Below are positions 8,560-45,671 of a stretch of 64,000 bases of DNA, in pieces (position 1 is the first letter of the stretch; the number at the start of each line of letters is the position of its first letter). A program made the translations under genes and the position numbers. The notes under the pieces are model-generated. The model had not been told where the DNA came from and ran no database searches. It saw only the letters and a program-made list of their open reading frames with translations. This stretch comes from Solibacillus sp. R5-41. Its GTDB lineage: Bacteria > Bacillota > Bacilli > Bacillales_A > Planococcaceae. The stretch is taken from contig NZ_CP024123.1 in NCBI RefSeq assembly GCF_002736105.1, positions 488,001 through 552,000 on the forward strand, in the 5' to 3' direction.

Positions 8560-8805
8560 TTTGCTTCAGCATAATTCTTCCACTTACAGAAGTGGGGGAT
8601 GAAGCCAAGTATAGCCTTTGTTCGGTGGGGGCCCAACCCTAGGCTGAATAGGTGAACTCAGGCTAAGAACGCCGCGTCGTGCGGCAACGCCTAAGTGACC
8701 AACGTCGTGTTGGCCCAAAGCCCCTGGAGGGAGTCACAGATTTTTAGAGGAGTTTTCGAGCAAGCTCGAAAAAAATCTGGACGCAATTACGCCAAGGCGT
8801 AATGG
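8560..8805 (+). repeat. Intergenic structured repeat, copy R2 (with cassette)
   Basis: A full-length copy beginning TTGCTTCAGC and ending with ATTACGCC-aa-GGCGTAAT. It carries the TTTTCGAGC-aa-GCTCGAAAA hairpin and, in its middle (8654-8714), the GTCGT-loop cassette. It lies after the pyrG terminator in the pyrG direction, while the next gene (ywjG) is on the other strand. It is thus one of the copies not placed before a start codon. With the pyrG terminator it fills the gap between pyrG and ywjG. Confidence 0.9.
8654..8714 (+). repeat. GTCGT-loop hairpin cassette inside R2
   Basis: The cassette begins GAACTCAGGC, has hairpin GCCGC-gtcgt-GCGGC, then GCCTAAG (imperfect partner of CTCAGGC), then hairpin CCAAC-gtcgt-GTTGG. 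Related copies occur at 23929, 40553, 45553 and 45567. Confidence 0.85.
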
Positions 8806-8843
8806 ATTAGATTTGCTTTTTACATAAGGATGTCGATTATTTT

Positions 8844-9383
8844 TTATTCATCGAAATCATCGTCATCTGAAATCATTTCATCAAATTCCATTTTAATTGC
8901 TTCATAAACGAAAAGTGCAGCGATTAAATGGGGCATTACAATACGCTCACCGAGATTTGTCGGATGTGGCAAAATTCCACCGCGCAATTTTAAGCAAATA
9001 TATGTGTAGGCTAACTCGCTTAGTTCATTACTTTCGCTAGCTACCTCACTCGCAACAGCTGCAAAAGGAATGAAAGCTTCGTTTAATTGTTGTGCAAGTA
9101 AAACCGCATCGGCATCGTTGCCACTACGCGTAAAAATGATGACACGATCAGCAGATAAAAGCTTCACATCCTTTGAATACGGTGCAAAATGGGCAAATGG
9201 ATCAGCACCATGAAGTGCATTCAGTGCAACGCCTTCCATTTCGCCAAAGCATGCAAAATATACCGTACCTTGTCCAATCGCAGCCTGTGCAAGCAGCCTA
9301 GCAGTTTCTTCAATCATGTCCTCTTCAGATTGCTGAATGCGCTGAAGAAGTCCCGAAAGTTGTGTTGTTAAAATTTTCGACAT
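8844..9383 (-). CDS. ywjG: DUF2529 family protein (YwjG)
   Basis: A 179-residue cytoplasmic protein matching B. subtilis YwjG (DUF2529) in look and position, lying opposite in strand between pyrG and spo0F. Segments such as KLLSADRVIIFTRSGNDADAV resemble the sugar-isomerase (SIS) type of fold seen in phosphosugar-binding proteins; that is my inference. The C-terminus is acidic (ISDDDDFDE). A ribosome-binding site (AGGTGG) precedes the ATG. A TGTCGAAAA sequence, matching the Spo0A-box core, overlaps the start codon. No function is established from sequence. Confidence 0.85.
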   Translation of the reverse strand: MSKILTTQLSGLLQRIQQSEEDMIEETARLLAQAAIGQGTVYFACFGEMEGVALNALHGADPFAHFAPYSKDVKLLSADRVIIFTRSGNDADAVLLAQQLNEAFIPFAAVASEVASESNELSELAYTYICLKLRGGILPHPTNLGERIVMPHLIAALFVYEAIKMEFDEMISDDDDFDE

Positions 9384-9451
9384 AATTCCACCTCATGCCT
9401 ATTATAAAAGTGTAAATAATAAAAAGCAAAATAGGAAATAATTAAAATAAG

Positions 9452-9479
9452 AAGGGAATTTACGGATTTAATCGAATTA
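9452..9479 (+). promoter_or_regulatory. Candidate sigma-H promoter of spo0F
   Basis: AAGGGAATT (9452-9460) and ATCGAATTA (9471-9479) resemble the sigma-H -35 (RnAGGAWWW) and -10 (RnnGAAT) elements with a 10-nt spacer, one or two short of the norm. In B. subtilis spo0F is transcribed by sigma-H. Confidence 0.5.
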
Positions 9480-9540
9480 AGTTTATGACTGAAATAATCT
9501 GAACAAGTTAGTTCACTATAAATTCTTAAGGGGAATGAAA

Positions 9541-9924
9541 TTGAAACTAAAAGAAATTTTAATTGTTGATGATCAGCAAGGAATCCGACTATTGTTAAAT
9601 GAAGTATTTAAAAAAGAAGGGTTTATCACACATCTTGCAGCCAATGGAATCGATGCATTAAATATTGTTCAAACGAAAGGAATTGATTGTGTCCTTTTAG
9701 ATATGAAAATCCCGGGCATGGATGGTTTAGAAATTTTAACACGATTAAAATTACAAAAAATAAATTTGCCTGTAATCATGATGACCGCTTATGGGGAACA
9801 GGATATTATTGATAAGGCGATGGAACTAGGCGCAATCCGATATTTCACAAAACCATTCAATATATTTGAAGTTCGTGATGAAGTGAAAAAAATTTTAGCA
9901 AATTATGAAGAAAAATATAGTTGA
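9541..9924 (+). CDS. spo0F: Sporulation phosphorelay response regulator Spo0F
   Basis: A single receiver domain of 127 residues with no output domain, as in Spo0F, which carries phosphate from sporulation kinases to Spo0B. The acidic pocket is in ILIVDDQ, the phospho-acceptor Asp in LLDMKIPGMDG, the conserved Thr in MMTAYGE and the Lys in FTKPF. Similarity to B. subtilis Spo0F is high throughout. TTG 9541 is preferred because AAGGGG ends about 7 nt before it; ATG 9535 is almost on top of that site. A sigma-H-like promoter lies about 60 nt upstream. Confidence 0.95.
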   Translation: MKLKEILIVDDQQGIRLLLNEVFKKEGFITHLAANGIDALNIVQTKGIDCVLLDMKIPGMDGLEILTRLKLQKINLPVIMMTAYGEQDIIDKAMELGAIRYFTKPFNIFEVRDEVKKILANYEEKYS

Positions 9925-9934
9925 ACACGTTTGC

Positions 9935-9965
9935 AGGCAGTAGCGAACACTGTCTGTTTTTGTTA
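9935..9965 (+). terminator. spo0F terminator
   Basis: Hairpin AGGCAGT...ACTGTCT followed by a T-run, shortly after the spo0F stop codon. Confidence 0.75.
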
Positions 9966-10111
9966 TGATAAATCTGAATGTTTTTAATCCAATCAAGATG
10001 GATGAACAGATTTGGATTGGTATTAGAAAAAAGACCATTTCAAAAATTCTTAGCAGAAATGTGTTTTTCTAAAAGTAACTTATTATTATATCTTCGAGGA
10101 GGATTTTTATA

Positions 10112-10966
10112 ATGGCATTAGTATCAATGAAAGAAATGTTAGCAAAAGCAAAAGCAGAAGGTTATGCAGTTGGTCAATTCAACATTAATAACTTGGAGTG
10201 GACACAAGCAATTTTACAAGCAGCAGAAGAAGAAAAATCACCTGTTATTTTAGGTGTTTCTGAAGGTGCCGGCAAATATATGGGTAGCTTTGTGACAGTT
10301 GTGAAAATGGTTGAAGGCTTAATGGAAAGCTATAAAATTTCAGTTCCAGTTGCGATTCATTTAGATCACGGCTCTAGCTTTGATAAATGTAAGGAAGCAA
10401 TTGATGCTGGCTTTACATCAGTAATGATTGATGCATCTCACCATTCATTCGATGAAAACGTAGCAATTACAAAAGAAGTAGTAGCTTACGCACATGCAAA
10501 AGATGTTTCAGTAGAGGCAGAACTTGGTACAGTTGGTGGCGAGGAAGATGGCGTTATCGGCGGTATCATCTATGCAAACCCACAAGAATGTAAAAACCTT
10601 GTAGAAGCAACGGGTATTGATTGTCTTGCACCAGCATTAGGCTCAGTTCACGGACCATATAAAGGTGAGCCAAACTTAGGCTTTACTGAAATGGAAGAAA
10701 TCTCAAAGTTAACTGATTTACCATTAGTATTACACGGTGGTACAGGTATCCCAACAAAAGATATTCAACGTTCAATTTCTTTAGGAACAGCAAAAATAAA
10801 CGTTAACACTGAAAATCAAATTGCGGCTTCAAAAGTAATCCGTGAGTTTTTAGATAATGACAAAACAACTTACGACCCACGTAAATTCTTAGGCCCAGCT
10901 CGTGAAGCGATTAAACAAACAGTAATTGGTAAAATGCGCGAGTTTGGCAGTTCACAAAAAGCATAA
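10112..10966 (+). CDS. fbaA: Class II fructose-1,6-bisphosphate aldolase
   Basis: A 284-residue zinc-dependent class II aldolase that splits fructose 1,6-bisphosphate to dihydroxyacetone phosphate and glyceraldehyde 3-phosphate. The metal and active-site motifs are visible: [11 protein letters not shown] near residue 82, the acidic [14 protein letters not shown], and VLHGGTG. Length matches B. subtilis FbaA. A GAGGAGG site precedes the ATG. It is followed by its own terminator and by tal, and lies downstream of spo0F as in B. subtilis. Confidence 0.97.
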
Positions 10967-10977
10967 TAAAATGGGTA

Positions 10978-11011
10978 ACATCTCGTTCAATTATGAGCGA
11001 GATGTGTTTTT
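10978..11011 (+). terminator. fbaA terminator
   Basis: Hairpin ACATCTCG...CGAGATGT followed by GTTTTT between fbaA and tal. Confidence 0.85.
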
Positions 11012-11051
11012 CTAACAATTAATCACAACATGTGTTTGGAGGATAATAAAA

Positions 11052-11702
11052 ATGAAATTTTTTATAGATACAGCGAATTTTGAGGACATTAAAGAAGCAT
11101 ACTCTTGGGGCATTCTTTCAGGTGTCACAACAAATCCATCATTAGTAGCGAAAGAATCAGGTGTTAATTTTCACGATCGTTTACGTGAAATCGCAGAATT
11201 AGTAAATGGCTCTGTTTCAGGTGAAGTTATTTCGTTAGATGCAGAAGGAATGATTCGTGAGGGTGAAGAATTAGCTGCAATCCACTCAAATATTACAGTA
11301 AAACTTCCAATGACTCCTGAAGGCTTAAAGGCTTGTAAACACTTCTCGGATAAAGGCATTAAAACAAATGTCACATTAATTTTCTCTACAAATCAAGCAT
11401 TATTAGCAGCCCGTGCAGGTGCAACTTATGTATCGCCGTTTTTAGGTCGTTTAGATGACATCGGTCAAGATGGTGTTGAATTAATTCGTGAAATTGCTGA
11501 AATGTTTGCCATTCATGAAATCTCAACAGAAATTATTGCAGCATCTATTCGCCATCCACAACATATTACGCAAGCTGCATTAGCAGGAGCACATATTGCA
11601 ACAACGCCATTTAAAGTTTTACAACAACTGTTTAACCATCCATTAACAGACAAAGGAATTGAGGGATTTTTAGCGGATTGGGCGGCACGTGAAGGGAAAT
11701 AA
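11052..11702 (+). CDS. tal: Transaldolase (small TalC/FSA type)
   Basis: A 216-residue small transaldolase of the TalC/FSA subfamily (B. subtilis YwjH). It begins [16 protein letters not shown] and has TTNPSL and ITVKLPMT, where Lys84 is the expected Schiff-base lysine. It would move a dihydroxyacetone unit between sugar phosphates in the pentose phosphate pathway. Some family members are fructose-6-phosphate aldolases, which sequence alone cannot exclude. A TTGGAGG site precedes the ATG. The neighbours fbaA and glpX are also sugar-phosphate enzymes. Confidence 0.92.
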
Positions 11703-11800
11703 TAAACGTAAAGTCACAGTAAAAGGCAACTTTTTTATGGAAAGTTGCCCAATGCTAAAATGAACGGAAAAATTTTTCCAAACGTGAGGGAGAAAGTAAA

Positions 11801-13078
11801 ATGGATGTGTATAAAATTAGAGGCGAACGCCGTCTTAAAGGAAAAGTAACAATTAATGGTGCAAAGAATAGCGCAGTCGCCCTAATTCCAGCATCAATTT
11901 TAGCGGGTTCTTCCGTAACGATTGGAGGAATTCCTGAAATTTCAGATGCATGGGCATTAAAGGCATTGCTTGAGGAAATCGGTGGAGAGGTGACATTTGA
12001 AAACGGTCAAATGATAATCGATCCAACTAAGATGGTCGCAATGCCATTACCGAATGGCAACGTAAAAAAAATGAGAGCTTCCTATTACTTAATGGGTGCG
12101 ATGCTTGGTCGCTTTAAGCAAGCAGTAGTGGGACTACCAGGAGGCTGCTTTTTAGGACCTCGTCCAATTGATCAGCATATTAAAGGTTTTGAGGCACTAG
12201 GTGCAAAGGTAACGAATGAGCACGGTGCGATTTATTTACGTGCTGACGAACTAATTGGGGCTAAAATTTATTTAGACGTGGCGAGTGTTGGGGCAACGAT
12301 CAATATTATGTTAGCAGCTGTTCGAGCAAAAGGAAGAACGGTTATTGAAAATGCTGCAAAAGAGCCTGAAATTATTGATGTTGCAACGCTCTTAACGAAT
12401 ATGGGCGCTAAAATCAAAGGAGCCGGCACAAGTGTTATTCGTATTGACGGCGTTGATGAATTAAGTGGCACGAACCATACTATTATTCCAGATCGTATTG
12501 AGGCATCAACATTTATGATTATGGCGGCAGCAGTTGGCGATGGAGTGTTAATTGACAATGTCATCCCACTTCATTTAGAGGCTGTAACTGCTAAATTACG
12601 TGAAATGGGTGTCGTAATAGAAATAGATGAAGAAAGTATTTATATTCCAAAACAAGGTCAATTGCGAGCAGTCGATGTAAAGACGCTCGTTTATCCTGGG
12701 ATCCCGACAGATGTACAGCAGCCTTTATCTGTTCTAATGACACAAGCAGAAGGTACATCTATCGTGACGGATACAATTTATTCTGCTCGCTTTAAGCATA
12801 TCGACGAGCTTCGAAGAATGAATGCGAAGGCACGCGTAGAGGGGAATACAGCGATTATTCAAGGCCCATCTGTTTTACAAAGTTCAGCGGTAACAGCAAC
12901 CGACTTACGAGCAGGTGCTGCACTAGTATTAGCGGGTTTACTCGCTAAAGGTGAGACAGAAATTCATGATATCTATCATATTGAGCGCGGTTACGGTGGT
13001 TTAATCGACAAGCTGTGCATGCTAGGAGCAGATATTCGTAAAGAATCAATTGTCATTAAGACAAATAAAAAAGCATAA
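11801..13078 (+). CDS. murAB: UDP-N-acetylglucosamine 1-carboxyvinyltransferase, second copy (MurAB/MurZ)
   Basis: One of two MurA paralogues in the window. It transfers enolpyruvate from PEP to UDP-GlcNAc, the first step of peptidoglycan synthesis, in the cytoplasm. The 425-residue length is typical. It starts [25 protein letters not shown] and the fosfomycin-target cysteine is in [13 protein letters not shown] (Cys116). The position between tal and glpX-rho matches B. subtilis murAB (murZ), whereas murAA lies after the atp operon here too. An imperfect hairpin without a T-run (about 11722-11750) precedes it. Confidence 0.95.
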
Positions 13079-13228
13079 TAATATATTACGGATAAATCAA
13101 AAAAACTGAATAATGTGCTACAATATTACGGGTGACTAATCAATTTTCATCAAATAGATTTAACTTCTTTCAGCATTCATCACCCACTTCAATAGGTGTT
13201 GAGATTAATTCGTGTTTGAAGTTACTAT

Positions 13229-13267
13229 TCAGTGGATGTCACGGAATTATGCCGAGGCATAATTGAA
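13229..13267 (+). repeat. Intergenic structured repeat, copy R3 (3' remnant)
   Basis: Only the linker end (GTGGATGTCACGG) and the terminal hairpin ATTATGCC-ga-GGCATAAT (13246-13263) remain; the middle hairpin is absent. It ends 70 nt before glpX, in the sense direction. The rest of the murAB-glpX gap shows no other feature. Confidence 0.75.
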
Positions 13268-13337
13268 TATAGAATAAAAATAACATCTTTCAATGCAGTA
13301 AGTTCGGCGTTAACCGATCACAGGAGGCAGACAGGAA

Positions 13338-14303
13338 ATGGAACGTAGTTTATCAATGGAAGTAGTACGTGTAACGGAAGCAGCAGCTATCGCATCAGCA
13401 AAATGGATGGGTCGCGGACTTAAAAATGAGGCAGATGATGCAGCAACAACAGCAATGCGCGTTATGTTCGACACTATTCCAATGCATGCAACAGTTGTAA
13501 TTGGTGAAGGAGAAATGGATGAAGCACCAATGCTTTATATTGGTGAAGAACTAGGACTTCGTAACGGCGGACCAGAAGTTGATATCGCAGTTGATCCATT
13601 AGAAGGGACAAACATTGTAGCTAAAGGTACAAATGGCGCAATGACTGTACTTGCAATTGCAGATCGAGGTAACTTATTAAATGCACCAGACATGTATATG
13701 GATAAAATCGCTGTAGGTCCAGAAGCAGCGGGCAAAGTAGATATTAATGCTTCCGTGACATATAACTTATTACAAGTAGCAAAAGCAAAAAACAAAGATA
13801 TTTCCGACGTAGTCGCGACTTTATTAGACCGTCCACGTCATCAGCATATTGTTGATGAAATTCGTGAAGCAGGTGCACGTATTAAATTCATCCAAGATGG
13901 CGACGTTGGTGCAGCAATCAATACAGCATTCGATGAAACAGGTATTGATATTATGTTCGGTATGGGTGGCGCTCCAGAAGGCGTAATCTCAGCCGTGGCA
14001 TTAAAATGCTTAGGTGGAGATTTCCAAGCGAAATTAGTACCAGAAGACGAAGAACAATTAGCGCGATGCAAAAAAATGGGTATCGACGTGGATAAAGTGT
14101 TAATGATGAACGATTTAGTAAAAGGTGATGATGCAATCTTCGCAGCAACAGCAGTTACAGATTCAGAGTTATTACGCGGCGTTCAATATAAAGGCTCTTA
14201 TGCATTAACACATTCGGTAGTTATGCGTGCAAAAACAGGTACAGTTCGTTTTATCGAAGGTCGTCACAGCATCGATAAAAAACCAAATTATGACTTTAAA
14301 TAA
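13338..14303 (+). CDS. glpX: Class II fructose-1,6-bisphosphatase
   Basis: A 321-residue GlpX-type fructose-1,6-bisphosphatase for gluconeogenesis. The metal-binding signature is [13 protein letters not shown], preceded by [18 protein letters not shown], and a glycine-rich [11 protein letters not shown] lies near residue 210. A CAGGAGG site precedes the ATG. Its place between murAB and rho agrees with B. subtilis glpX (ywjI). It opposes fbaA and glycolytic flow, so the cluster handles fructose bisphosphate in both directions. Confidence 0.95.
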
Positions 14304-14367
14304 CTTCTTTATAACAGAAGATTAATTGAAAATGCATTCCCATTTCGTTAATCTCGTTATATAATTA

Positions 14368-14396
14368 ATGCCCGGCTATAATTGCCGGGCATCTTT
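14368..14396 (+). terminator. glpX terminator
   Basis: Perfect 9-bp stem ATGCCCGGC...GCCGGGCAT followed by CTTTC. Confidence 0.85.
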
Positions 14397-14536
14397 CAAA
14401 TCAATTGAAACTGAAAATTGATCCTTCATTCGATAATTCCCTCACACCTGGATTACATAATCGAATCAATCGAATTCACCGATAAATAAGTACCCAATAA
14501 AAGAGAACTGAAAAAAATATAGACTGGAGACATCAC

Positions 14537-15820
14537 ATGACAGCATTAACGATTGCGCAATTAGAAAGCATGACATTAAAAGAACTTTATGCTTTAGCAA
14601 AGCAATATAAGCTAACGAATGCTAGTAAGCTAACGAAAAAGGAACTGATTTTTGCCATATTAAAATCACGTTCTGAACAAGAAGGATTTTTCTTCATGGA
14701 AGGCGTTCTTGAAATTGTTTCGACAGAAGGCTTTGGTTTTTTACGACCAATTAACTATTCACCATCAAAAGAGGATATTTATATTTCGGCATCTCAAATT
14801 CGCCGATTTGGTTTACGTAATGGTGACAAAGTATCGGGTAAAGTTCGCCCGCCAAAAGAAAATGAGCGTTACTATGGATTATTACAAGTGGATGCAGTCA
14901 ATGGAGAAGATCCTGAAGTTGCAAAAGAACGTGTGCATTTCCCAGCATTAACACCACTTTATCCAGATCGCCATATTAAACTTGAAACGGCACCAACTCA
15001 GTTATCAACACGCATTATGGATTTAGTAGCACCTGTTGGCTTTGGACAACGTGGATTAATCGTTGCTCCACCAAAAGCGGGTAAAACATCGCTTTTAAAA
15101 GAAATTGCCAATTCGATTACGACGAATCATCCACAAGCAGAATTAATCGTATTGCTAATCGATGAACGTCCGGAAGAGGTAACAGATATCGAACGTTCAG
15201 TGAATGCAGATGTTGTGTCATCTACATTTGATGAAGTACCTGAAAACCACGTAAAAGTAGCGGAAATGGTTTTAGAGCGCGCGCGTCGTTTAGTAGAGCA
15301 TAAACGTGATGTTATTATTTTAATGGATTCAATTACGCGACTTGCCCGTGCGTATAACTTAGTTATTCCACCAAGTGGACGTACACTTTCAGGGGGTATT
15401 GACCCAGCTGCATTCCACCGTCCAAAGCGTTTCTTCGGTTCTGCCCGTAACATTGAAGAAGGGGGCAGCTTAACGATTTTAGCGACAGCACTTGTTGATA
15501 CAGGAAGCCGTATGGATGAAGTGATTTATGAGGAATTTAAAGGGACAGGTAACCTAGAGCTACATTTAGACCGTCATTTAGCAGAGCGCCGTATTTTCCC
15601 AGCGCTTGATATTCGTCGCTCGGGTACACGTAAAGAAGAATTACTCATTCCAAAAGATCAGCTTGAGAAATTATGGGCAATTCGTAAAACATTTAGTGAT
15701 TCTACCGACTTTTCAGAGAAGTTTTTACGTAAATTACGTACAACGAAAACAAATGAAGAGTTTTTCGAAAAGCTTGATACAGATATGAAAAGAGCAACGA
15801 ATGGTAAGGGGTTACTATAA
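14537..15820 (+). CDS. rho: Transcription termination factor Rho
   Basis: A 427-residue Rho hexamer subunit. It has the N-terminal Rho_N helical domain, a cold-shock-like RNA-binding domain (GFGFLRP near residue 65), and a RecA-like ATPase with Walker [10 protein letters not shown] around residues 177-185 and Walker B VIILMDS. The standard Q-loop/R-loop region is intact. The ribosome-binding site is only moderate (TGGAGAC). It stands just upstream of rpmE as in B. subtilis. The protein lacks the long insertions seen in some high-GC Rho proteins. Confidence 0.97.
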
Positions 15821-16177: not shown

Positions 16178-16276
16178 TATGAAACGTGTGCATATGTAAC
16201 CGACATATTCGGGTTATGTAAGGCACAGTTCGAATAATACTCTGTTCCGGATGGTTCAGGGCGAGAGGAGTAACGA
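16178..16276 (+). promoter_or_regulatory. Possible L31 autoregulatory mRNA leader
   Basis: The rpmE leader can fold: TGTGC (near 16186) pairs with GCACA (near 16223), enclosing AACC/GGTT, with a further C/G-rich part before the ribosome-binding site. Firmicutes rpmE leaders bound by L31 are known; whether this one fits that family needs a covariance-model test. Confidence 0.4.
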
Positions 16277-23838: not shown

Positions 23839-24120
23839 TAAAGTGGGAATCTGACTAAGAATCCGCCGCCTCTCGCTTTAGCGGCGTACCAAATCCGGAA
23901 AGTTTCAGAATGGCATACTAAAGCAGAGGAACTCAGGCTAAAATGGCCACGTCCTGTGGCAACGTCTGAGTGACCAACGTCGTGTTGGCTCAGTCTTGCA
24001 CAAAGCACAAAAATGAGTCGTTCATATTTGTGCTAAAATTGTCTGTGTAGCTCATATGCCTAGCCAGCCTAAACTACTAGCTCGCACTTAATTAGTGCCC
24101 AAATTAGAACTCGCGTTATC
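23839..24120 (+). repeat. Second intergenic repeat family, copy B (with inserted cassette)
   Basis: Shares with copy A the CTAAGAATCCGCCGC start, AAAGTTTCAGAA, TTGCACAAAGCAC, ATGAGTCGT and the GCACAAA/TTTGTGC hairpin (24005-24011 with 24027-24033). It differs by a GTCGT-loop cassette between AAAGCAGAGG and TCTTGCACAAAG, absent from copy A. Confidence 0.75.
23929..23989 (+). repeat. GTCGT-loop hairpin cassette inside family-2 copy B
   Basis: CTCAGGC (23932-23938) pairs with GTCTGAG (23964-23970); inside is GCCAC-gtcct-GTGGC (23946-23960), and after it CCAAC-gtcgt-GTTGG (23974-23988). Same design as the cassettes in R2, R7 and R10. Confidence 0.88.
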
Positions 24121-25323: not shown

Positions 25324-25512
25324 CTTGCTTCAGCAGAAGTCCTTCACTACTATAATGGGAGATGCATGCTGAAGATGTACTGGTTTCAGTTAGAGTCTAA
25401 ACTATGGCTGAATCAAGTTAGCACCTGCGGATGTCACAGATTTTTTAGGGAAGCTTTTCGAGCGTGGTCGAAAAAAATCTGGACTAAAGTTAGCCGAGGC
25501 GTAATTGATTAA
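25322..25512 (+). repeat. Intergenic structured repeat, copy R4
   Basis: A full copy: AACTTGCTTCAG at the ywlG stop pairs with CTGAATCAAGTT near 25412. It has the GCGGATGTCACAGATTTTT/AAAATCTGG stem with an inner TTTTCGAGC-gt-GGTCGAAAA hairpin, and then GCCGAGGCGTAATTGAT. It ends 57 nt before glyA and occupies nearly all the gap. Confidence 0.9.
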
Positions 25513-27616: not shown

Positions 27617-27619
27617 TGT

Positions 27620-27719
27620 AACTTGCTTCATCCCCCGGCGGATGGCACAGATTTTTAGATGAGTTTTCGACTAGCTCGAAAAAAATTTGGACAAAAGTTA
27701 GCCGAGGCATAATTGATTA
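27620..27719 (+). repeat. Intergenic structured repeat, copy R5 (5' domain mostly deleted)
   Basis: Starts ACTTGCTTCAT then jumps straight to CCCCCGGCGGATGGCACAG. It retains the CAGATTTTT/AAAAATTTG stem, the TTTTCGA-ct-AGCTCGAAAA hairpin and GCCGAGGCATAATTGAT. It lies 67 nt before wecB. Confidence 0.85.
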
Positions 27720-36619: not shown

Positions 36620-36727
36620 TATCTTTGTTCAGCAGAGAGTTCCTACTTACAATATTGGTAAGATGAATGCAGTATTTTGCAAGTACTAACGAAATTTGGA
36701 CAAAAGTTAGTCAAGGTGTAATTGAGT
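36620..36727 (+). repeat. Intergenic structured repeat, copy R6 (degenerate)
   Basis: A shortened, diverged copy with TTGTTCAGCAGAGAG at its start, GAAATTTGGACAAAAGTTAG and GTCAAGGTGTAATTGAG at its end. The GCGGATGTCACAG linker and the middle hairpin are lost. It ends 19 nt before ywzB. Confidence 0.7.
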
Positions 36728-36746
36728 AAGAAAGGAAGTGAAATAC

Positions 36747-38711: not shown

Positions 38712-38778
38712 GTTCTCTCAAATCTTATAAAAATTAAATTCAAATGAATGTTTTTCTCTAGTGAACATACATTGTGTT

Positions 38779-39702
38779 ATGAAAAAATTGCTAATCTGTA
38801 TCTTGTTGTTTTGCATTCCATTGTATTTTGTGAAAGGTATAAAAAGCACACCACAAACGCTAGAAACACCAGAAGCACCAGAAGCACCAGTAAATCAATG
38901 CGTGATTTACGTGAAAGTGAATGATGAAGAAATAGCGCTCAATCAGTATTTAGTTGGCGTGTTAGCAGGAGAGATGCCTGCAAGCTTTCATGCTGAGGCA
39001 TTAAAGGCACAAGCCATTGCTGCTAGAACGTATGCATTGAGGCAAACAGATTATGGCAAAAAAGAAATTCAAGCAACAACAGCCCATCAAGTATTTGAAT
39101 CAGAAGAAAAACGAAAGGAAAAATGGAAAGCAGTATTTTCCACATACGAAAATAAAATAGAACAAGCAATAGCAGCAACGGGAAATCAAGTTTTAACGTA
39201 TGATGGCCAATTAATTACAGCAATGTTTCATGCGTCTTCTAGCAAACAAACCGAATCAGCGAAAAACTATAGTGGACAGGAAATCCCTTATTTACGATCG
39301 GCTATGTCGATTGAGAAGCCTTTAAGTGAATCCGTTAGCTTTTCATTTGCAGAGTTGAATGAACGGCTGAAACAAAAGCTAAGCGCAGATGCGTATCGCA
39401 AAATTAGTTTTGCTAGAAATGATACGAACCGCATCCAGCAAGTAACGATAGACAATGTTGTTTGGTCTGGTAGAGAATTTCGAGAGCTGCTTCAACTAAA
39501 ATCTACTGACTTCTCCGTGAAGTGGTCAAAAAAAGGGCTTGAAATCACAACACGAGGATACGGTCACGGTGTAGGTATGAGTCAGCACGGAGCAAATGCG
39601 ATGGCGAAGAATGGTACGACCGTAGAGGGGATTTTAAAAAATTACTACCCGGGGGCACAAATTGAAGAAGCGAATTATTGTAAAGAAGTAAGCACACAAT
39701 AA
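38779..39702 (+). CDS. spoIID: Stage II sporulation protein D (lytic transglycosylase)
   Basis: A 307-residue SpoIID that cuts glycan strands during engulfment, together with SpoIIP and SpoIIM. An N-terminal membrane anchor (residues 2-19) is followed by a Pro/Glu linker and the SpoIID domain; Glu65 in GVLAGEMPA is the expected catalytic residue, and ITTRGYGHGVGMSQHGANAM is the family end motif. ATG 38779 has no good ribosome-binding site; GTG 38761 is the alternative. CATACATT at 38766 resembles a sigma-E -10 box, which would put the transcript start almost on ATG 38779. Confidence 0.92.
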   Translation: MKKLLICILLFCIPLYFVKGIKSTPQTLETPEAPEAPVNQCVIYVKVNDEEIALNQYLVGVLAGEMPASFHAEALKAQAIAARTYALRQTDYGKKEIQATTAHQVFESEEKRKEKWKAVFSTYENKIEQAIAATGNQVLTYDGQLITAMFHASSSKQTESAKNYSGQEIPYLRSAMSIEKPLSESVSFSFAELNERLKQKLSADAYRKISFARNDTNRIQQVTIDNVVWSGREFRELLQLKSTDFSVKWSKKGLEITTRGYGHGVGMSQHGANAMAKNGTTVEGILKNYYPGAQIEEANYCKEVSTQ

Positions 39703-39723
39703 GCTGGAAACACCAGCTTTCTC
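39701..39723 (+). terminator. spoIID terminator
   Basis: AAGCTGG...CCAGCTT stem overlapping the stop codon, followed by TCTCAACTCTTTT. Confidence 0.65.
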
Positions 39724-39845
39724 AACTCTTTTCAGTAGGGGGTCAAACCTTCTACGCATGTGACAAAAAATTATGAAGTATCACAATGAATAAGTATGTT
39801 TAAATTCTCAAAAATCGGTCTACACTTCCACTAGAGGTGATGATG

Positions 39846-40493
39846 ATGAGAGAAGATAAACAAAAGCCTTCTCAAAAGACGCTTATGCAGCAGGCGTGGT
39901 TTTGGCCAGCTATCTATGGCGGAATGGCATTAATGATTGTTGCAGTAATTTTTGGCTTTAACCAACTTTATGATGGTCAACAGGAAAAGGCATTAGTTGA
40001 AGAAAACGTGGCACCAGAGCCTGGGTTAGTAGAAACTGCTGCACGTGAAGAAACATTAAAGTATCCGTTTAAAGAGGAATTTGTGAATGAAGTAGCAATC
40101 CTTCAAGATTTTTACGATGTGAATGCGGATGAAGCATCACGTGAAAACGCATTGCTCGTATTCAATCAAGTATTCACAACGTCCACAGGTGTGTCAATTG
40201 CGATTAATAGTGAACCGTTTGAAGTTGTAGCTGCAATGAGTGGGGAAGTCGCAGAAGTGAAGCTAGACACGTTTACAGGGAATACAATTATTATGAATCA
40301 TGCAGATGGTAAGCAAACGCGTTATAGCTCTGTGGCAGATATTTTAGTAAAAGCCGGCGACAAAGTAACGCAAGGCGAACAAATTGCAACATCGCAGGAT
40401 AATGAATGGAATCCAACTGCCGGTGTCCATTTACATTTTGAAGTATTAGAGCAAGGTGTATTCGTAGATCCACGTAAATATTTATCGTTCTAA
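39846..40493 (+). CDS. spoIIQ: Stage II sporulation protein Q (degenerate M23 domain)
   Basis: A 216-residue forespore membrane protein with one N-terminal helix (about residues 20-38) and an extracellular LytM/M23 fold. It forms the zipper and channel with mother-cell SpoIIIAH. The first metal-site motif is degenerate: STGVSIAIN has Ser113 and Ser117 where active M23 enzymes have His and Asp. HLHFEV near the C-terminus is kept. It is therefore probably not a peptidase, like B. subtilis SpoIIQ. ATG 39846 fits AGAGGTGA best; GTG 39837 and two more ATGs precede it. Sits after spoIID as in B. subtilis. Confidence 0.92.
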   Translation: MREDKQKPSQKTLMQQAWFWPAIYGGMALMIVAVIFGFNQLYDGQQEKALVEENVAPEPGLVETAAREETLKYPFKEEFVNEVAILQDFYDVNADEASRENALLVFNQVFTTSTGVSIAINSEPFEVVAAMSGEVAEVKLDTFTGNTIIMNHADGKQTRYSSVADILVKAGDKVTQGEQIATSQDNEWNPTAGVHLHFEVLEQGVFVDPRKYLSF

Positions 40494-40494
40494 G

Positions 40495-40694
40495 TTGAAT
40501 CAGTAGGGATTAAAATCCTTATTGAATAGGGGAACTTTGGCTACGCGTAGAGAGCAAAGGCTAAGCCTGTCACGTCCAGTGACAACGCCTTTGTGATCAA
40601 CGTCGTGTTGGTCTGAAGCCCCGGCGTATGGTACAGATTTTTTTCGAGTAGACTTGAAAAAAATCTGTACCTAATTATGCCAAGGCGTAATTAA
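40495..40694 (+). repeat. Intergenic structured repeat, copy R7 (with cassette)
   Basis: Begins at the spoIIQ stop codon with TTGAATCAGTAGGGATT/AATCC-like pairing, carries a GTCGT-loop cassette, and has CCCCGGCGTATGGTACAG. Here the middle stem has become a long GTACAGATTTTTT/AAAAAATCTGTAC, with the base pairs next to CAGA changed on both sides. It ends with ATTATGCC-aa-GGCGTAAT. It lies 284 nt before spoIIID. Confidence 0.85.
40553..40613 (+). repeat. GTCGT-loop hairpin cassette inside R7
   Basis: CAAAGGC (40556-40562) pairs with GCCTTTG (40588-40594); GTCAC-gtcca-GTGAC (40570-40584); TCAAC-gtcgt-GTTGG (40598-40612, one T-G wobble). An incomplete outer cassette start, GAACTTTGGCTA, lies at 40533. 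Confidence 0.88.
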
Positions 40695-40978
40695 TGTTGA
40701 AATACCCCGATTTATTCGAATAATGAGAGCCAACAAAACATAAGGTGAAGCAATAAACATCTTTTACAACCTGTTGTAGAAAATGAACATATTTGCTAGT
40801 GCTCACTTTATAATTGAAGACCTTGTCATCAATATCTAATCCCTTGCAATAGAGGCATTTCAAACCTATGTTGAAGTGTCAAAATGGGGATGTAACAGAT
40901 TGGGAATGACAGCTAGAAACAAGGTCTGAACAAAATATGAAGTTGGCTCTTTTCATATTCGATAGAGAGGGAGAGAAC
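40695..40978. other. Stretch between R7 and spoIIID
   Basis: No gene was recognised. AATATGA (40933-40939) and CATATTC (40954-40960), 14 nt apart, resemble a sigma-E promoter for spoIIID, which is sigma-E-dependent in B. subtilis. Confidence 0.4.
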
Positions 40979-41245
40979 GTGCACGAACATATTCGACATC
41001 GCTGCGTTCGACTGGGAGAGCTGTTGATTGAGACGGGGGAAACTGTACGTGCCCTTGCAAAACTGACTGGGTTTTCAAAAAGTACTGTACACAAGGATTT
41101 AACAGAACGACTCAAACAAATAAATGAACCACTCGCACACCAAGTACAGCAAGTGTTGGCGTACAATAAGTCAATACGTCATTTGCGCGGAGGTGAAGCG
41201 ACTCGAAAAAAATGGGAAAGCAAACAGTATGAAAGTAGCATTTAG
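40979..41245 (+). CDS. spoIIID: Sporulation transcription factor SpoIIID
   Basis: An 88-residue mother-cell regulator. The helix-turn-helix ETVRALAKLTGFSKSTVHKD is followed by LTERLKQIN and the basic RHLRGGEATRKKW tail, as in B. subtilis SpoIIID, which modifies the sigma-E regulon. GTG 40979 gives the expected MHEHIRHR start and has GAGAGGGAG just upstream; a longer frame from 40937 adds unrelated residues. It precedes mbl and flhOP, as in B. subtilis. Confidence 0.94.
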   Translation: MHEHIRHRCVRLGELLIETGETVRALAKLTGFSKSTVHKDLTERLKQINEPLAHQVQQVLAYNKSIRHLRGGEATRKKWESKQYESSI

Positions 41246-41275
41246 ACGATCTCGATTAGATTCTAAATGCTTTTT
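41237..41275 (+). terminator. spoIIID terminator
   Basis: AGCATTTAGA pairs perfectly with TCTAAATGCT, overlapping the stop codon, followed by TTTT. Confidence 0.9.
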
Positions 41276-41447
41276 CGAGTTTCAAAAGAAAAGTCAAAAG
41301 CCCGTAATTCCCATTAATTTACCTATTAAAGGGAAATCCTTCCCATAAAATAAGATGTAATTCACTATTTATTATGATAAAATAATCAAGATGAAGAGAT
41401 AATAGATACGTAAATGTTGGAATCAGTGGGAAGGAGCTAAAAAAGCT

Positions 41448-42446
41448 ATGTTTTCAAAAGATATTGGGATCGATTTAGGGACGGCGAATGTACTGATCCA
41501 TGTGAAGGGTAGAGGGATTGTCTTAAATGAGCCGTCCGTTGTGGCGATTGATAAAAAATCAGGTAAAGTACTTGCTGTAGGTGAAGAAGCACGTCAGATG
41601 GTGGGACGTACACCAGGCAATATTACGGCAATTCGCCCATTAAAAGATGGGGTTATTGCTGATTTTGATATTACAGAAGCGATGTTAAAGCATTTTATAA
41701 ATAAATTAGACGTCAAAGGTTTTTTATCAAAACCACGCATTTTAATTTGTTGTCCGACAAATATTACAAGTGTAGAGCAAAAAGCTATTCGTGAAGCTGC
41801 TGAAAAAGCTGGTGGCAAAAAGGTATACCTAGAAGAAGAGCCAAAAGTAGCGGCGATTGGTGCAGGTATGGACATCTTCCAACCAAGCGGTAACATGGTA
41901 GTAGATATCGGTGGTGGTACAACAGATATCGCAGTTTTATCGATGGGTGATATCGTGACGAGCGAGTCTATTAAAATCGCAGGTGACGTATTTGACAATG
42001 ACATCTTGCAATACATAAAGAAAGAATACAAGCTATTAATTGGTGAACGTACATCAGAAGCAATTAAAATGACGATTGGCACAGTTTACCCAGGTGGACG
42101 TAGTGATTCAATGGATATTCGTGGTCGTGATATGGTCACAGGACTGCCTCGTACGATTGAAATTCATTCTGAGGAGATTGAACAAGCCTTACGTGAATCA
42201 GTTAGTATGATCGTTCAATCCGCAAAAAATGTGTTAGAAAAAACACCGCCAGAACTATCAGCAGATATTATTGATCGCGGTGTCATTATTACAGGTGGTG
42301 GCGCATTGCTACATGGCATGGACCAGTTATTAGTGAATGAATTAAAAGTACCTGTCTTTGTTGCTGAAAATCCAATAGACTGCGTGGCAATTGGAACAGG
42401 CATTATGTTAGACAATATTGACCGTGCAGTAGGGGCAAGCAAATAA
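41448..42446 (+). CDS. mbl: MreB-like actin Mbl
   Basis: A 332-residue bacterial actin homologue of the Mbl branch. It begins MFSKDIGIDLGTANVLIHVKG, has the phosphate-binding VVDIGGGTTDIAVLS near residue 155 and the adenosine motif GVIITGGGALL near 280. It organises the elongation machinery for side-wall synthesis at the membrane. Similarity and the spoIIID-mbl-flhO order distinguish it from MreB and MreBH. Ribosome-binding site GGAAGGAG. Confidence 0.95.
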   Translation: MFSKDIGIDLGTANVLIHVKGRGIVLNEPSVVAIDKKSGKVLAVGEEARQMVGRTPGNITAIRPLKDGVIADFDITEAMLKHFINKLDVKGFLSKPRILICCPTNITSVEQKAIREAAEKAGGKKVYLEEEPKVAAIGAGMDIFQPSGNMVVDIGGGTTDIAVLSMGDIVTSESIKIAGDVFDNDILQYIKKEYKLLIGERTSEAIKMTIGTVYPGGRSDSMDIRGRDMVTGLPRTIEIHSEEIEQALRESVSMIVQSAKNVLEKTPPELSADIIDRGVIITGGGALLHGMDQLLVNELKVPVFVAENPIDCVAIGTGIMLDNIDRAVGASK

Positions 42447-42526
42447 CAAACGAGCACAATTTCTAACATTCTCAAAATTTTTACCGATAATATATAAATA
42501 CTAGAAAATATTTTGAGGTGAATGTA

Positions 42527-43366
42527 ATGTTTAAAGGATTTTATACAGTTGCAACAGGTATGATTGCTCAACAACGTAAAACAGAAATTTTAACAAATAA
42601 TATGGCAAATGCTAATACACCAGGCTTTAAATCTGATCAGTCGACGATTCGTTCGTTTCCGGATATGCTCATGTCCGCTGTGAATTCTACAACAATTCCA
42701 ACAGAAAAAGGCTTTGCATTAAAGCGATTAGATCCAGTGGGCACGGTAAATGCCGGTGTTTATTTACAAGAAACATTAGCGAATCATTCGCAAGGACAAG
42801 TTTATTCAACAGGCCTTACAACAGATGTCGCATTGATAAATGAAACATTACCAACTGATCCAGCGTCAGGTAATACAGGCGCTATTTTCTTCCGTTTAGA
42901 AAATGAAAATGGCACAGAGTCATATACGCGAAATGGTAACTTTACGTTAGACGGAGAAGGAAACTTAGTTAATCCGAATGGGCTCTTTGTGTTAGATGCA
43001 AATGGAGAACGCCTTCAATTTGCAAATGACGCGATTCAAATTAGTCCTGAAGGTGCAATTTTTGATGAAAATGGTGTTCAAGTGGGCACATTAGGTGTTT
43101 CATTTTCTTCAAATCCGGATTTATTAGTAAAGCGTGATAACGGTCTTTACAATACAATGGATAATGTAAATTTACCATCTGCCTATGGACAAGCAGGGGT
43201 TAATTTTGCAATGCAGCAGCAATATTTAGAAGGATCTAATGTCGATTCTTCAAAAGCAATGACGGATCTTCTAACAGCATACCGAGCGTTTGAGGCCAAT
43301 CAAAAAGTACTACAATCCTACGATAAAAGTATGGATAAAGCTGTTAATGAAATTGGACGAGTTTAA
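42527..43366 (+). CDS. flhO: Flagellar basal-body rod protein FlhO (FlgF/FlgG family)
   Basis: A 279-residue rod/hook family protein. The N-terminus MFKGFYTVATGMIAQQRKTE with NNMANANTPGFKS, and the C-terminal coiled coil ending YRAFEANQKVLQSYDKSMDK, are the standard self-assembly ends. ATG 42527 follows TTGAGGTGA; GTG 42518 lies within that site. With FlhP it forms the distal rod in B. subtilis. Its stop codon overlaps the first stem of repeat R8. Confidence 0.92.
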   Translation: MFKGFYTVATGMIAQQRKTEILTNNMANANTPGFKSDQSTIRSFPDMLMSAVNSTTIPTEKGFALKRLDPVGTVNAGVYLQETLANHSQGQVYSTGLTTDVALINETLPTDPASGNTGAIFFRLENENGTESYTRNGNFTLDGEGNLVNPNGLFVLDANGERLQFANDAIQISPEGAIFDENGVQVGTLGVSFSSNPDLLVKRDNGLYNTMDNVNLPSAYGQAGVNFAMQQQYLEGSNVDSSKAMTDLLTAYRAFEANQKVLQSYDKSMDKAVNEIGRV

Positions 43367-43497
43367 CTATTTGGCAGTTGCCTAAGCAACCGCTAAAATA
43401 GTTAAAGCCCCGGCGGATGTTAAGGAATCGGAAAGGAGTTCTTTGTGAGATCACAAAGCCGATCCAAAACGCAATTACGTCGAGGCATAATTCATAA
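43365..43497 (+). repeat. Intergenic structured repeat, copy R8 (stems replaced)
   Basis: Keeps the AAAGCCCCGGCGGATGT linker and the end ATTACGTC-ga-GGCATAAT, but its other stems have new sequences that still pair. The 5' domain is AACTATTT (43365-43372) with AAATAGTT (43396-43403) around GTTGC-ctaa-GCAAC. The middle is GGAATCGG with CCGATCC around CTTTGTG-agat-CACAAAG (43441-43458). It ends 31 nt before flhP. Confidence 0.85.
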
Positions 43498-43528
43498 ATA
43501 AATTTTATCGTATAGAGGAGAAATAGGC

Positions 43529-44368
43529 ATGTTACGTACAATGGTTACTGCGACAAACACATTGTCACAAATACAGCATCAGCTTGATACAATTAGTTCG
43601 AATATCGCCAACAGTAGTACACATGGCTATAAAGCACAACAAGCGAATTTTACGGAAATGTTATATCAACAATTCGACAACGACAAGTTTGATAAAACAT
43701 TACGTCAATCACCAGTTGGTATTCGCTATGGCGTCGGTGCACAAATTGGTCAAATTCAATCCAATCAAACACAAGGTTCAATCCAAATGACTGAGCGTGA
43801 TTTAGATTTTGCACTAACTGGAAAAAATCAGTATTTCAATATTTTGATGCAAGATGAAAATGGTGCAACACAAACGGTCTATACACGTAACGGTAGTTTT
43901 TACGTAACACCAACGGAACCAGGAATCGTGTCACTTGTTAACAGTGATGGACATAGTGTAGCAGATTCAAATGGACAACCGATTACGTTTCCAGATGACG
44001 TAAAGCAATTCACGATGAATACGGACGGCAGTTTAGTTGTAAACTATCAAAACGGACAAGCACAAACGTTCCAATTAGGTATTACTGCTCTTCAAAAGCC
44101 ACAAGTAATGGAGCAAATTCAAGGTGGCACATATATCGGTTTACCAAATAATTTAGACGAGTTAGGGTATACTGAAGAAAACATCGTAACGAATTTACAA
44201 GGGGCAAATCGTCAAGTAGGTATTCAAAAGGGTGCACTTGAAATGTCTAACGTCGATGTATCAAAAGAAATGACGAGTTTAATTCAAGCGCAACGCTCTT
44301 ATCAGTTCAATACGCGCGCAGTGACTATTGCCGATCAAATGCTTGGACTAATTACTGGTATTCGTTAA
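43529..44368 (+). CDS. flhP: Flagellar basal-body rod protein FlhP
   Basis: A 279-residue partner of FlhO, with N-terminal MLRTMVTATNTLSQIQHQLD and SSNIANSSTHGYKA and C-terminal SLIQAQRSYQFNTRAVTIAD. It belongs to the rod/hook family acting outside the membrane. The ribosome-binding site is AGAGGAG. The two genes are separated by repeat R8 only. Confidence 0.92.
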   Translation: MLRTMVTATNTLSQIQHQLDTISSNIANSSTHGYKAQQANFTEMLYQQFDNDKFDKTLRQSPVGIRYGVGAQIGQIQSNQTQGSIQMTERDLDFALTGKNQYFNILMQDENGATQTVYTRNGSFYVTPTEPGIVSLVNSDGHSVADSNGQPITFPDDVKQFTMNTDGSLVVNYQNGQAQTFQLGITALQKPQVMEQIQGGTYIGLPNNLDELGYTEENIVTNLQGANRQVGIQKGALEMSNVDVSKEMTSLIQAQRSYQFNTRAVTIADQMLGLITGIR

Positions 44369-44380
44369 TCGTCAATTTTA

Positions 44381-44569
44381 GCTTGCTTCAGAGAAAAATT
44401 CTCACTTCTAAAAGTGATAGGATGAATACCAAATATATAATTCAGTAGGGGTTCAAACCCCGGCTGAATCAAGTTAAAGCCCCTGGCGGATGTCACAGAT
44501 TTTTAAGAGGCGCTTTTCGAGCAAACTCGAAAAAAAATCTGGACGCAATTACGCCGAGGCGTAATTGAT
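44381..44569 (+). repeat. Intergenic structured repeat, copy R9 (near-consensus)
   Basis: Probably the clearest copy. CTTGCTTCAG pairs with CTGAATCAAG around two hairpins (TCACTTcta-aAAGTGA and GGGGTT-ca-AACCCC). Then AAAGCCCCTGGCGGATGTCACAG, middle stem CAGATTTTT/AAAAATCTG with TTTTCGAGC/ACTCGAAAA inside, and ATTACGCC-ga-GGCGTAAT. It ends 14 nt before the epuA start, so the GGGAGA ribosome-binding site directly abuts it. Confidence 0.92.
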
Positions 44570-44583
44570 GGGAGATAAAGTTT

Positions 44584-44871
44584 ATGACAAATGAGTTAGA
44601 AAGACGAACACAGCAACCAGACGCTACACCTAGGAAGAGAAGGCGTAGAAGAACGGAAGAACCACAATCGGATCAACCGATTCGCTGGGTCCAGCTGCGT
44701 CTTATTCCAATTTGGCTACGCATCATTATCGTAATCGCGTTATTTGTGGGTGTAGCCGTATTGGGACTCACGATTGGATATAGTTATATTGGAGATGGAG
44801 AAGCAGGGGGTGCTCTAAAATGGAGTACTTGGCAGCATCTATTAGACATTATGGAAGGTAAGGAAAACTAG
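44584..44871 (+). CDS. epuA: EpuA/PF11772-like small membrane protein
   Basis: A 95-residue protein with a strongly basic N-terminus (RKRRRRR), a QLRLIPIWLRIIIVIALFV membrane-entry segment, one hydrophobic helix (about 47-69) and the ending YIGDGEAGGALKWSTWQHLL. This is the pattern of the EpuA family (PF11772), which databases call an RNA polymerase beta-like subunit without good proof. Ends with a terminator that overlaps its stop. Confidence 0.75.
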   Translation: MTNELERRTQQPDATPRKRRRRRTEEPQSDQPIRWVQLRLIPIWLRIIIVIALFVGVAVLGLTIGYSYIGDGEAGGALKWSTWQHLLDIMEGKEN

Positions 44872-44895
44872 GCGTCTTTTGAAAAGGCGCTTTTT
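44872..44895 (+). terminator. epuA terminator
   Basis: GCGTCTTTT-ga-AAAGGCGC stem directly after the stop codon, followed by TTTTT. Confidence 0.8.
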
Positions 44896-45017
44896 CCTCC
44901 AAATGTTAAAAAAGCATATCTTCTACATAATGTTAAGACATCTTCCTGCACAATATACGCGCAAGAGGTGTTTTTCTAAATTTTACATATTATTTTCAAA
45001 CAAATGGGGGTACTTAT

Positions 45018-45455
45018 ATGTTAAACGCAGAGCAAATTCAAGCAATCTTACCACATCGTTATCCGTTTTTATTTGTAGATCGAATTATTGAAATTGAAGA
45101 GGGTAAACGTGCAGTAGGTATTAAAAACGTTTCAATGAATGAGGAATTCTTCCAAGGACATTTCCCTGGATATCCGGTTATGCCCGGCGTACTGATCGTT
45201 GAAGCATTAGCACAAGTTGGCGGTGTTGCATTATTACAAGCAGAACAGTATAAAGGACGCCTTGTATTTTTAACTGGAATAGACAATTGTCGTTTTAAGC
45301 GTCAAGTTGTACCAGGTGATCAATTGAAGTTAGAAGTTACATTTATTAAACTACGTGGTCAAATGGGTAAAGGACATGCCGTTGCTACAGTTGATGGCGA
45401 ACTTGCATGCGAGTGCGATATATTATTTGCGGTTGGCCCAGAACAGCCGAAATGA
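45018..45455 (+). CDS. fabZ: 3-hydroxyacyl-ACP dehydratase FabZ
   Basis: A 145-residue hot-dog-fold dehydratase of type II fatty-acid synthesis. The catalytic His is in [21 protein letters not shown], with the conserved Glu of VEALAQ on the central helix. [13 protein letters not shown] at the N-terminus is diagnostic. The ribosome-binding site is weak (ATGGGGG). Position after flhOP agrees with B. subtilis ywpB (fabZ). Confidence 0.97.
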
Positions 45456-45552
45456 GCTGATTTGCAATTATATCGTAAAGATTATAGAATATAGATTGAA
45501 TATATTCTATAAATTGAATCAGTGGGGATTTTTCATACCCCAATGAATAGGG

Positions 45553-45671
45553 GAACTCAGGCTAAGGGAACAAAGGCTAAACCCGTCACGTCCTGTGACA
45601 ACGCCTTTGTGATCAACGTCGTGTTGACCCGCGTCGTGCGGCAATGCCTGAGTGACCAACATCGTGTTGGC
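45553..45671 (+). repeat. Outer GTCGT-loop cassette of R10, split by an inner copy
   Basis: CTCAGGC (45556-45562) pairs with GCCTGAG (45646-45652); CCGC-gtcgt-GCGG (45629-45641); CCAAC-atcgt-GTTGG (45656-45670). The two halves are separated by the inner copy. Confidence 0.88.
45567..45628 (+). repeat. Inner GTCGT-loop cassette of R10
   Basis: CAAAGGC (45571-45577) pairs with GCCTTTG (45603-45609); GTCAC-gtcct-GTGAC (45585-45599); TCAAC-gtcgt-GTTGA (45613-45627). All stems are perfect. It closely resembles the cassette in R7. Confidence 0.9.

Follow-up and report, generated by a model that had tools for sequence, protein, structure and literature searches.

A 64,000-nucleotide (nt) stretch of the Solibacillus sp. 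R5-41 genome (bases 488001-552000 of the 4,283,411-bp single-contig genome, labelled G000; hereafter the window) carries short hairpin cassettes of the family Bacillaceae-1 (Rfam RF01690). We tentatively propose that the cassette, a 63-nt unit with two hairpins, moves as a non-autonomous DNA module, a reading that we hold possible rather than probable. Cassette sites turned over almost completely between two sister species, and the cassettes spread as Watson-Crick palindromes that then decay regardless of wobble. The family itself was already known; in the literature covered, no account of its mobility, host repeats or nesting was recognised.

We infer that the cassette folds as single-stranded DNA and is contacted by protein. 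The copied form would be a folded single strand, recognition may go through the two similar loops (RTCST) together with the AAC and TGA spacers, and an enzyme supplied in trans would join the cassette beside other stems, with copies decaying after insertion. The cassette would usually spread as cargo of a larger repeat (~190-260 bp) and sometimes alone, and in other Bacillaceae-type genomes the module found in operons may have been recruited as a transcribed leader. In the following, G003 is the sister species, G002, G006, G009 and G015 are congeners, and L-numbers denote individual loci fetched from genomes.

Cassettes of the window and their host repeats

Four places in the window matched RF01690 when searched with cmscan (8647-8713, 23922-23988, 40545-40611 and 45561-45627). 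The matches are full-length, scored 59-72 bits against a gathering score of 35 (E 2.5e-11 to 2.9e-8), and exceed chance by far. An earlier note, made from the letters of the window, had described five cassettes as one feature spanning 8654-45671. The stems, the arm versions that it quoted and the loops GTCGT, GTCCT, GTCCA and ATCGT are present as described, but the span holds scattered copies instead of a single feature. Four of the five cassettes are the Rfam matches, and the fifth (~45608-45669) is the 3' part of a split cassette; it is not independent, because this outer cassette (45551-45566 and 45630-45670) is interrupted by a 63-nt cassette at 45567-45629. The spacer AAC, taken as fixed, is AAT at 45643-45645 in the outer cassette. 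The arms CTCAGGC/GCCTGAG form a perfect pair only there, with GCCTAAG (C.A) in the 8647 copy and GTCTGAG (G.U) in the 23922 copy. The description had also missed that the cassettes lie within larger intergenic repeats, here called host repeats I, IV and V. The features of the window are listed below.

8548..8813, plus strand: host repeat I around cassette A, ~266 nt in G000, missing at the orthologous G003 site
8647..8716, plus strand: cassette A, the RF01690 match 8647-8713 plus CCC, 68.7 bits (cmscan)
8657-8663/8689-8695, 8671-8675/8681-8685 and 8699-8703/8709-8713: stems P1 (one C.A mismatch), P2 and P3 of cassette A, both loops GTCGT
23922..23988, plus strand: cassette B, 72.2 bits (cmscan), in host repeat IV (...AGTTTCAGAATGG..[cassette]..CTTGCACAAAGCACAA...)
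25325..25512, plus strand: host repeat I copy without cassette, repeat families D1/D2, missing in G003
40545..40611, plus strand: cassette C, 59.0 bits (cmscan), inside host repeat I
43403..43492, plus strand: right part of host repeat I, cassette-free; G003 has a 63-nt cassette between the bases matching 43402 and 43403
44376..44571, plus strand: host repeat I copy without cassette, repeat families D1/D2, missing in G003
45513..45767, plus strand: host repeat I with the nested pair E1/E2, ~254 nt missing in G003
45551..45566, plus strand: 5' half of the outer cassette E2, GGGAACTCAGGCTAAG, read from the sequence
45567..45629, plus strand: inner nested cassette E1, the 63-nt unit GGAACAAAGG...GTTGACC, Rfam match 45561-45627 with 72.0 bits
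45630..45673, plus strand: 3' half of the outer cassette E2, with the P2 hairpin, AAT, the GCCTGAG arm, TGA, P3 (loop ATCGT) and CCC
5891-6019, 27618-27718, 36650-36733 and 48065-48262 (approximate): other cassette-free copies of host repeat I
51174-51350, 52916-53120 and 59295-59420, minus strand (approximate): cassette-free copies of host repeat I

Cassette-bearing copies of host repeat I coexist in the window with about nine cassette-free ones. Other cassettes of the same genome sit in a context similar to that of cassette B, and a 5' remnant of another cassette (GGGGAACTTTGGCTAC) lies immediately upstream of cassette C. The Rfam match of E1 starts six bases inside the 5' part of the outer cassette, and in predicted folds of 45551-45673 the outer P1 stays closed around the inner cassette.

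The whole genome has 103 RF01690 matches, 99 of them over the cut-off (150 of 532 candidates scored), and each of 15 congeners has 3 to 94 (up to 94 candidates scored per genome). Matches were present in 67 of 299 genomes sampled from the class and in 32 of 119 genera; with up to 16 candidates scored per genome, copy numbers in this sample are lower bounds. The copies are intergenic in character: 102 of the 103 lie outside stop-free frames of at least 450 nt, and such frames contain 74.9% of 1000 random positions in the window. The strand of a copy tends to go with the half of the contig, the first half having 44 copies on the plus and 12 on the minus strand and the second half 20 and 27, a count in which gene orientation is not separated and the origin is assumed. 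In Psychrobacillus soli, several cassettes (L174, L202, L214, L237 and others) lie less than 100 nt from contig ends, which would fit an assembly broken at recent, nearly identical copies.

Host-repeat motifs were found within 260 nt of 94 of the 103 copies (I 79, V 9, IV 6; none near 9), a count made without a random control. Host repeat I is ordered as a TTCAG..CTGAAT hairpin, the cassette, GGCGGATGTCACAGATTTTT...AAATCTGGAC and the terminal hairpin CAATTACGCCNAGGCGTAATTGAT. With at most 2 mismatches, this terminal hairpin occurs 140 times in G000, 176 in G003, 61 in G002, 64 in G015 and 1-17 times in 12 other congeners; the reversed pattern was absent from G000 and the congeners searched. 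Relative to host repeat V, the orientation of the cassette at 221 places is the same (41), the opposite (32), both (5) or none (143), and nearly all the opposite-orientation cassettes belong to Psychrobacillus-type genomes. Among 80 loci listed, inspection by eye placed the cassette within interspersed repeats in Psychrobacillus, Aquibacillus, Oceanobacillus, Lentibacillus, Sporosarcina and others.

Turnover between sister species and nesting

Ten congeners have a collinear 68-kb region orthologous to the window, and 40545 is the only one of its four cassette loci where G003 also carries a cassette. The intergenic region of the 8647 copy also holds a cassette in G002, G015, G006 and G009, on the opposite strand, and some further cassette loci are common to these four. 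Over ~460 kb, the comparison of G000 with G003 gave 36 cassette loci, of which 34 were testable, and 32 of the 34 had no cassette match in the aligned interval of the other genome. By alignment, with five class labels changed by eye, the whole element is missing in the other genome at 27 of them and two are unclear (854668, 873070). The rest are one shared locus counted from both sides, a cassette-only difference (596304), 840631, where the host is common on the right and the cassette and the left part are missing in the other genome, and 603955, where the other genome has a different repeat at that point. At two loci the sister species have host sequence in common and differ in the cassette.

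Host repeats turn over in the same comparison. Between their collinear blocks, G000 and G003 differ by 95 candidate insertions of 50-450 nt; about half (49) contain a host-I hairpin, 13 of these with a cassette. For the host-I hairpins of G000, 24 of 32 testable ones lack such a hairpin in the orthologous interval. The joint removal of host and cassette at 27 of the 34 loci fits a serious rival, although one we judge somewhat unlikely: the cassette would have no mobility of its own, would multiply inside larger mobile repeats and would be transferred passively by recombination or gene conversion among them. The occurrence of the same module in different repeats of different genera and in ribosomal RNA (rRNA) and transfer RNA (tRNA) operons speaks against this rival, as does the cassette-only locus. 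There, G000 reads ATAGT/TAAAGCC and G003 reads ATAGT-GGAAC...GTTGGCC-TAAAGCC; in a pairwise alignment the two host copies have 13 nt in common to the left and ~90 nt to the right, and no direct repeats flank the 63-nt difference.

Cassettes also lie inside one another. By a hand count, 10 of the 103 own copies stand directly behind the 5' part of another cassette; the number is a judgement, since the pattern search gave 16 own copies, of which 9 were read as real, and 642513 was added. Nesting recurs at one point, which has the TAA that follows the first P1 arm on one side and the P2 hairpin on the other. Deeper nests were seen by eye elsewhere, at L048 and at L352, L353 and L355. In the last three, from genome G149, cassettes are nested up to three deep and their arms are nearly identical, and G149 seems to be a second lineage with active self-insertion.

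Covariation and mismatch spectrum

The earlier note had read the paired changes in the window as covariation that argues for selection on a folded RNA or single-stranded DNA. The folded shape is indeed conserved with compensatory change. An alignment of 66 sequences (63 distinct; 50 own and 16 from relatives, picked among the best matches) has 95.4% of cells paired, against 79.4% when shuffled and 29-37% with the partner slid, and both sides change in 13 of 17 pairs. Fitch reconstruction on a FastTree tree of 147 distinct cassettes placed both changes of a pair on the same branch in 71-75 cases, 64-69 of them from one Watson-Crick pair to another, and the slid controls gave 10-20 and 0-3. A stricter G-test in which substitutions were re-thrown on the tree gave 2 of 17 pairs with E<0.05 and none outside the structure, from 60 null alignments and with little power. 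Compensatory change in the cassette family is therefore real. Thermodynamic z-scores of the predicted folds were mixed between strands and were not used.

Within the genome, covariation is mostly between four P1 versions copied whole (CTCAGGC 63, GTTAGCC 21, CAAAGGC 11 and CGAAGGC 7, among 102 distinct copies). A few ancestral versions copied whole, the account that the earlier note had named as undoing its own reading, thus largely explain the variation in this genome. Double Watson-Crick changes within the versions number 28, 4, 3 and 0, against 19.1, 0.8, 3.2 and 0.3 expected under independent change. The loop of the host-I CACAGATTTT/AAAATCTGGAC stem is where cassettes of version C are placed, some in one orientation and some in the other. 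In a multi-genus set (221 distinct), 24, 11 and 12 perfectly paired versions were found for P1, P2 and P3, and these helices are perfectly paired in 87 of 216, 150 of 216 and 153 of 207 copies. GG directly 5' of P1 and CC directly 3' of P3, which are able to pair, occur in 96 and 79 of 100 copies, and the 63-nt unit starts and stops exactly at these ends. The extra helix beyond P3 is suggestive only, because the GG and CC positions vary little.

The nearly exclusive exchange of Watson-Crick pairs for Watson-Crick pairs also suits passive carriage. In that account the arms would be rewritten by template switching in the palindrome (quasi-palindrome correction), which would yield compensatory changes without selection, and hybrid cassettes with arms from two versions (4039981, 3794921, 3669354) are in keeping with it. 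However, unrepaired mismatches are common in this genome, so arm correction is not the dominant process there.

Structured RNAs tolerate G.U pairs and not A.C pairs, and the comparison of the two was used to judge at which level the fold is conserved. The 147 distinct cassettes have 75 G.U and 98 A.C cells. Departures from a pair by a single change led, on the tree, to A.C in 77-80 cases and to G.U in 61-63. As a control, the acceptor and T stems of 64 tRNAs from neighbouring loci (one dropped) gave 59 G.U and 7 A.C, a contrast that is flattered because ARAGORN disfavours A.C; Infernal flagged no non-standard pair among the 9 tRNAs shown. Spread as Watson-Crick palindromes followed by wobble-blind decay favours a DNA-level process for the interspersed copies, and an RNA role of the operon copies is still compatible with it. 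Selection on an RNA fold is unsupported in this genome, because the versions are copied whole and G.U does not exceed A.C, and the covariation of the window does not prove it. Judged by wobble pairs, the Rfam strand is likewise unsupported as an RNA strand. The cassette looks like a preserved DNA hairpin more than a selected RNA, and the single-stranded DNA that the earlier note had offered as its alternative is the better fit in Solibacillus sp. R5-41.

CsrA binding needs GGA. Of the 102 distinct own copies, 53 have this motif (TCC on the strand given here) in loop 1, 7 have it in loop 2 and just 3 have it in both. Congeners with as few as 3 and as many as 94 copies alike have CsrA. These observations largely refute, for the genus, a reading that we consider very improbable, in which the cassette is a CsrA-binding sponge read from the reverse complement. 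It was proposed in PMC4333381, whose available text reports reverse-complement matches to the CsrA motif and calls the strand uncertain. In agreement with a sponge, CsrA is encoded in 16 of 16 genus genomes searched, and A.C, which is G.U on the reverse strand, is commoner in 74 further cassettes of other genera (40 against 14 G.U; 37 and 10 in free pairs alone), a set in which the search pattern fixed part of the stems. The reverse strand is not claimed as an RNA strand; the multi-genus excess of A.C is mainly one A.C common to Psychrobacillus-type copies.

Operon copies, proposed mobilisation and related elements

Bacillaceae-1 sometimes adjoins rRNA operons, as the public family description says. 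Operon copies were taken from 20 loci of high-scoring matches outside the genus, 12 of them with rRNA or tRNA genes, together with L045, L052 and L053; the operon loci, with 25 cassettes, were chosen and are not a random sample. All 25 cassettes are on the strand of the neighbouring stable RNA, and 18 of the 24 readable cases have their 3' end no more than 3 nt away from the annotated 5' end of a stable RNA (5S 9, tRNA 8, 16S 1). L050 (~1501-1568, minus strand) has a cassette that seems to split a 5S rRNA gene; by eye its flanks look like two 5S halves, and an Rfam search gave no 5S match there.

Such placement is what would be expected if the cassette were a functional structured RNA transcribed from the Rfam strand, an operon leader removed at 5S, tRNA or 16S maturation, with the interspersed copies acting as small RNAs (sRNAs) or untranslated-region elements. 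The Rfam class of RF01690 is sRNA gene, and the unpaired AAC, TGA and J1/2 TAA are among the least variable positions of the main version. We nevertheless regard this reading as unlikely, more so than passive carriage. The operon copies (23 distinct) show no G.U excess, with 374 Watson-Crick pairs, 3 G.U, 6 A.C and 5 other, the mismatch spectrum of the interspersed copies is like neutral decay, almost no sites are common to the sister species, and the orientation within host repeats is mixed.

The same positions led us to consider a stem-seeking miniature element that joins directly 5' of a helix, which is improbable in our estimation. It would join 5' of its own P2 (nesting), at the closing stems of 5S, tRNA and 16S, and in the loops of host palindromes. 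An RNA route could account for the exactness of these joins: cassette RNA would be ligated to the processed 5' ends of stable RNAs and then copied into DNA. The choice between an RNA and a DNA route is left open, because the missing G.U excess favours a DNA fold as the recognised form. If true, stem-seeking joining by either route would give a 63-nt sequence a novel means of movement.

Several results weigh against the mobile module that we propose. At the cassette-only locus the left host hairpin also differs between the G000 and G003 copies, so recombination is possible there, as passive carriage would have it. This is the single near-clean cassette-only difference seen, and it may be a gain or a precise loss. 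Just two to four forms of junction occur among the nests of the genome, which could therefore stem from a small number of events that were copied afterwards. The always-sense orientation of the operon copies is not predicted by DNA mobility alone. In the second P1 version, version C, double changes exceed those expected from independence (4 against 0.8). No mobilising gene was found among the Y1 transposase and TnpB families searched: the Y1 transposase PF01797 has no match in G000, G002, G009 and G015, which have 103, 90, 39 and 92 cassettes, and TnpB (PF07282) is absent from the same four genomes. Target-site duplication was not evident at the empty sites inspected, for which no formal count was made.

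TnpB has 19 matches in G003, 18 of them over the cut-off and five of a second, larger type, and none in G000. A sharing of ends between host repeat I and a TnpB-bearing element was considered and rejected; similarity to host I occurs in just 3 of the 19 G003 loci, at separate places within the locus. Movement of host I in the manner of IS200/IS605, with TTAAC as target, was unconvincing (p 0.047), and the idea was dropped because the systematic count gave 4 of 49 empty sites against 2.8% in the control. A literature search for TTTAAC gave nothing.

The terminal loops of Bacillaceae-1 are both RUCCU, a descriptive motif and not an Rfam inclusion rule, and the RF01690 consensus has GUCCU and AUCCU. 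The cassettes share the stems, spacers and loop frame of RF01690 and depart from it in the loops, with RTCCT in loop 1 of 71 of 147 and in loop 2 of 20, where RTCGT occurs in 82. The Rfam model ends at P3, whereas a GG/CC helix may form in the cassettes. In the papers, cited here and below from the available part of their text, Bacillaceae-1 is without an established function, and the proposals for it are a candidate structured RNA (Weinberg et al. 2010, PMC2864571) and the CsrA sponge (PMC4333381), and an atlas of B. subtilis has 8 copies (PMC8208703). RF01690 is listed as a candidate structured RNA, whereas the cassettes described here are a nested, high-copy module of mobile repeats. In the literature covered, with subscription papers outside the scope, we recognised no description of Bacillaceae-1 mobility, host repeats or nesting. 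An earlier survey (PMC2267715) includes a 74-bp family from B. halodurans and rRNA-precursor clusters, which may be Bacillaceae-1 as well.

Similar elements are known from other bacteria. BOX elements of streptococci (PMC3049150) resemble the repeats described here: they are intergenic, composite and probably non-autonomous, and their structured central module is optional. In S. suis the central module lies between different flanking modules. By description the cassettes are set apart from BOX: boxB multiplies in tandem, whereas the cassettes multiply within one host by nesting, and unlike BOX they are in rRNA and tRNA operons and several different host repeats. The GTAG and CGTC families of REP/RAYT (PMC3733652) are also interspersed palindromes with compensatory stem changes. 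They have a Y1 (RAYT-type) transposase, which this genome lacks, and the CGTC families have stems of 8-9 bp and an unpaired end tag, whereas the CGTC of the cassette straddles stem and loop of 5-bp hairpins. Like the cassettes, bcr1 and other Bacillus miniature inverted-repeat transposable elements, described in part in PMC3733652 and PMC2267715 and otherwise from general background, are small, non-autonomous, folding intergenic elements; at the empty sites inspected, again without a formal count, the cassettes differ from them in showing no evident transposon-like terminal inverted repeats or target duplication.

Apart from the cassettes, the window has an L31 ribosomal protein leader over threshold (16240-16270), a weak PyrG leader match before the gene at 6889-8493 (6667-6748, 43.9 bits against 65) and a sub-threshold match to the group II intron D1-D4-5 (63799-63959, 32.6 bits against 34.5).

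In summary, Bacillaceae-1 would be recast as a hairpin module that is mobile, is carried by intergenic repeats, occurs nested in itself and in other lineages lies against the 5' ends of stable RNAs. The comparison of G.U with A.C is a simple test that can tell RNA-level from DNA-level conservation of covarying hairpins. Covariation is often read as proof of a functional RNA, and Bacillaceae-1 is a caution in this respect, as copied DNA palindromes covary too.

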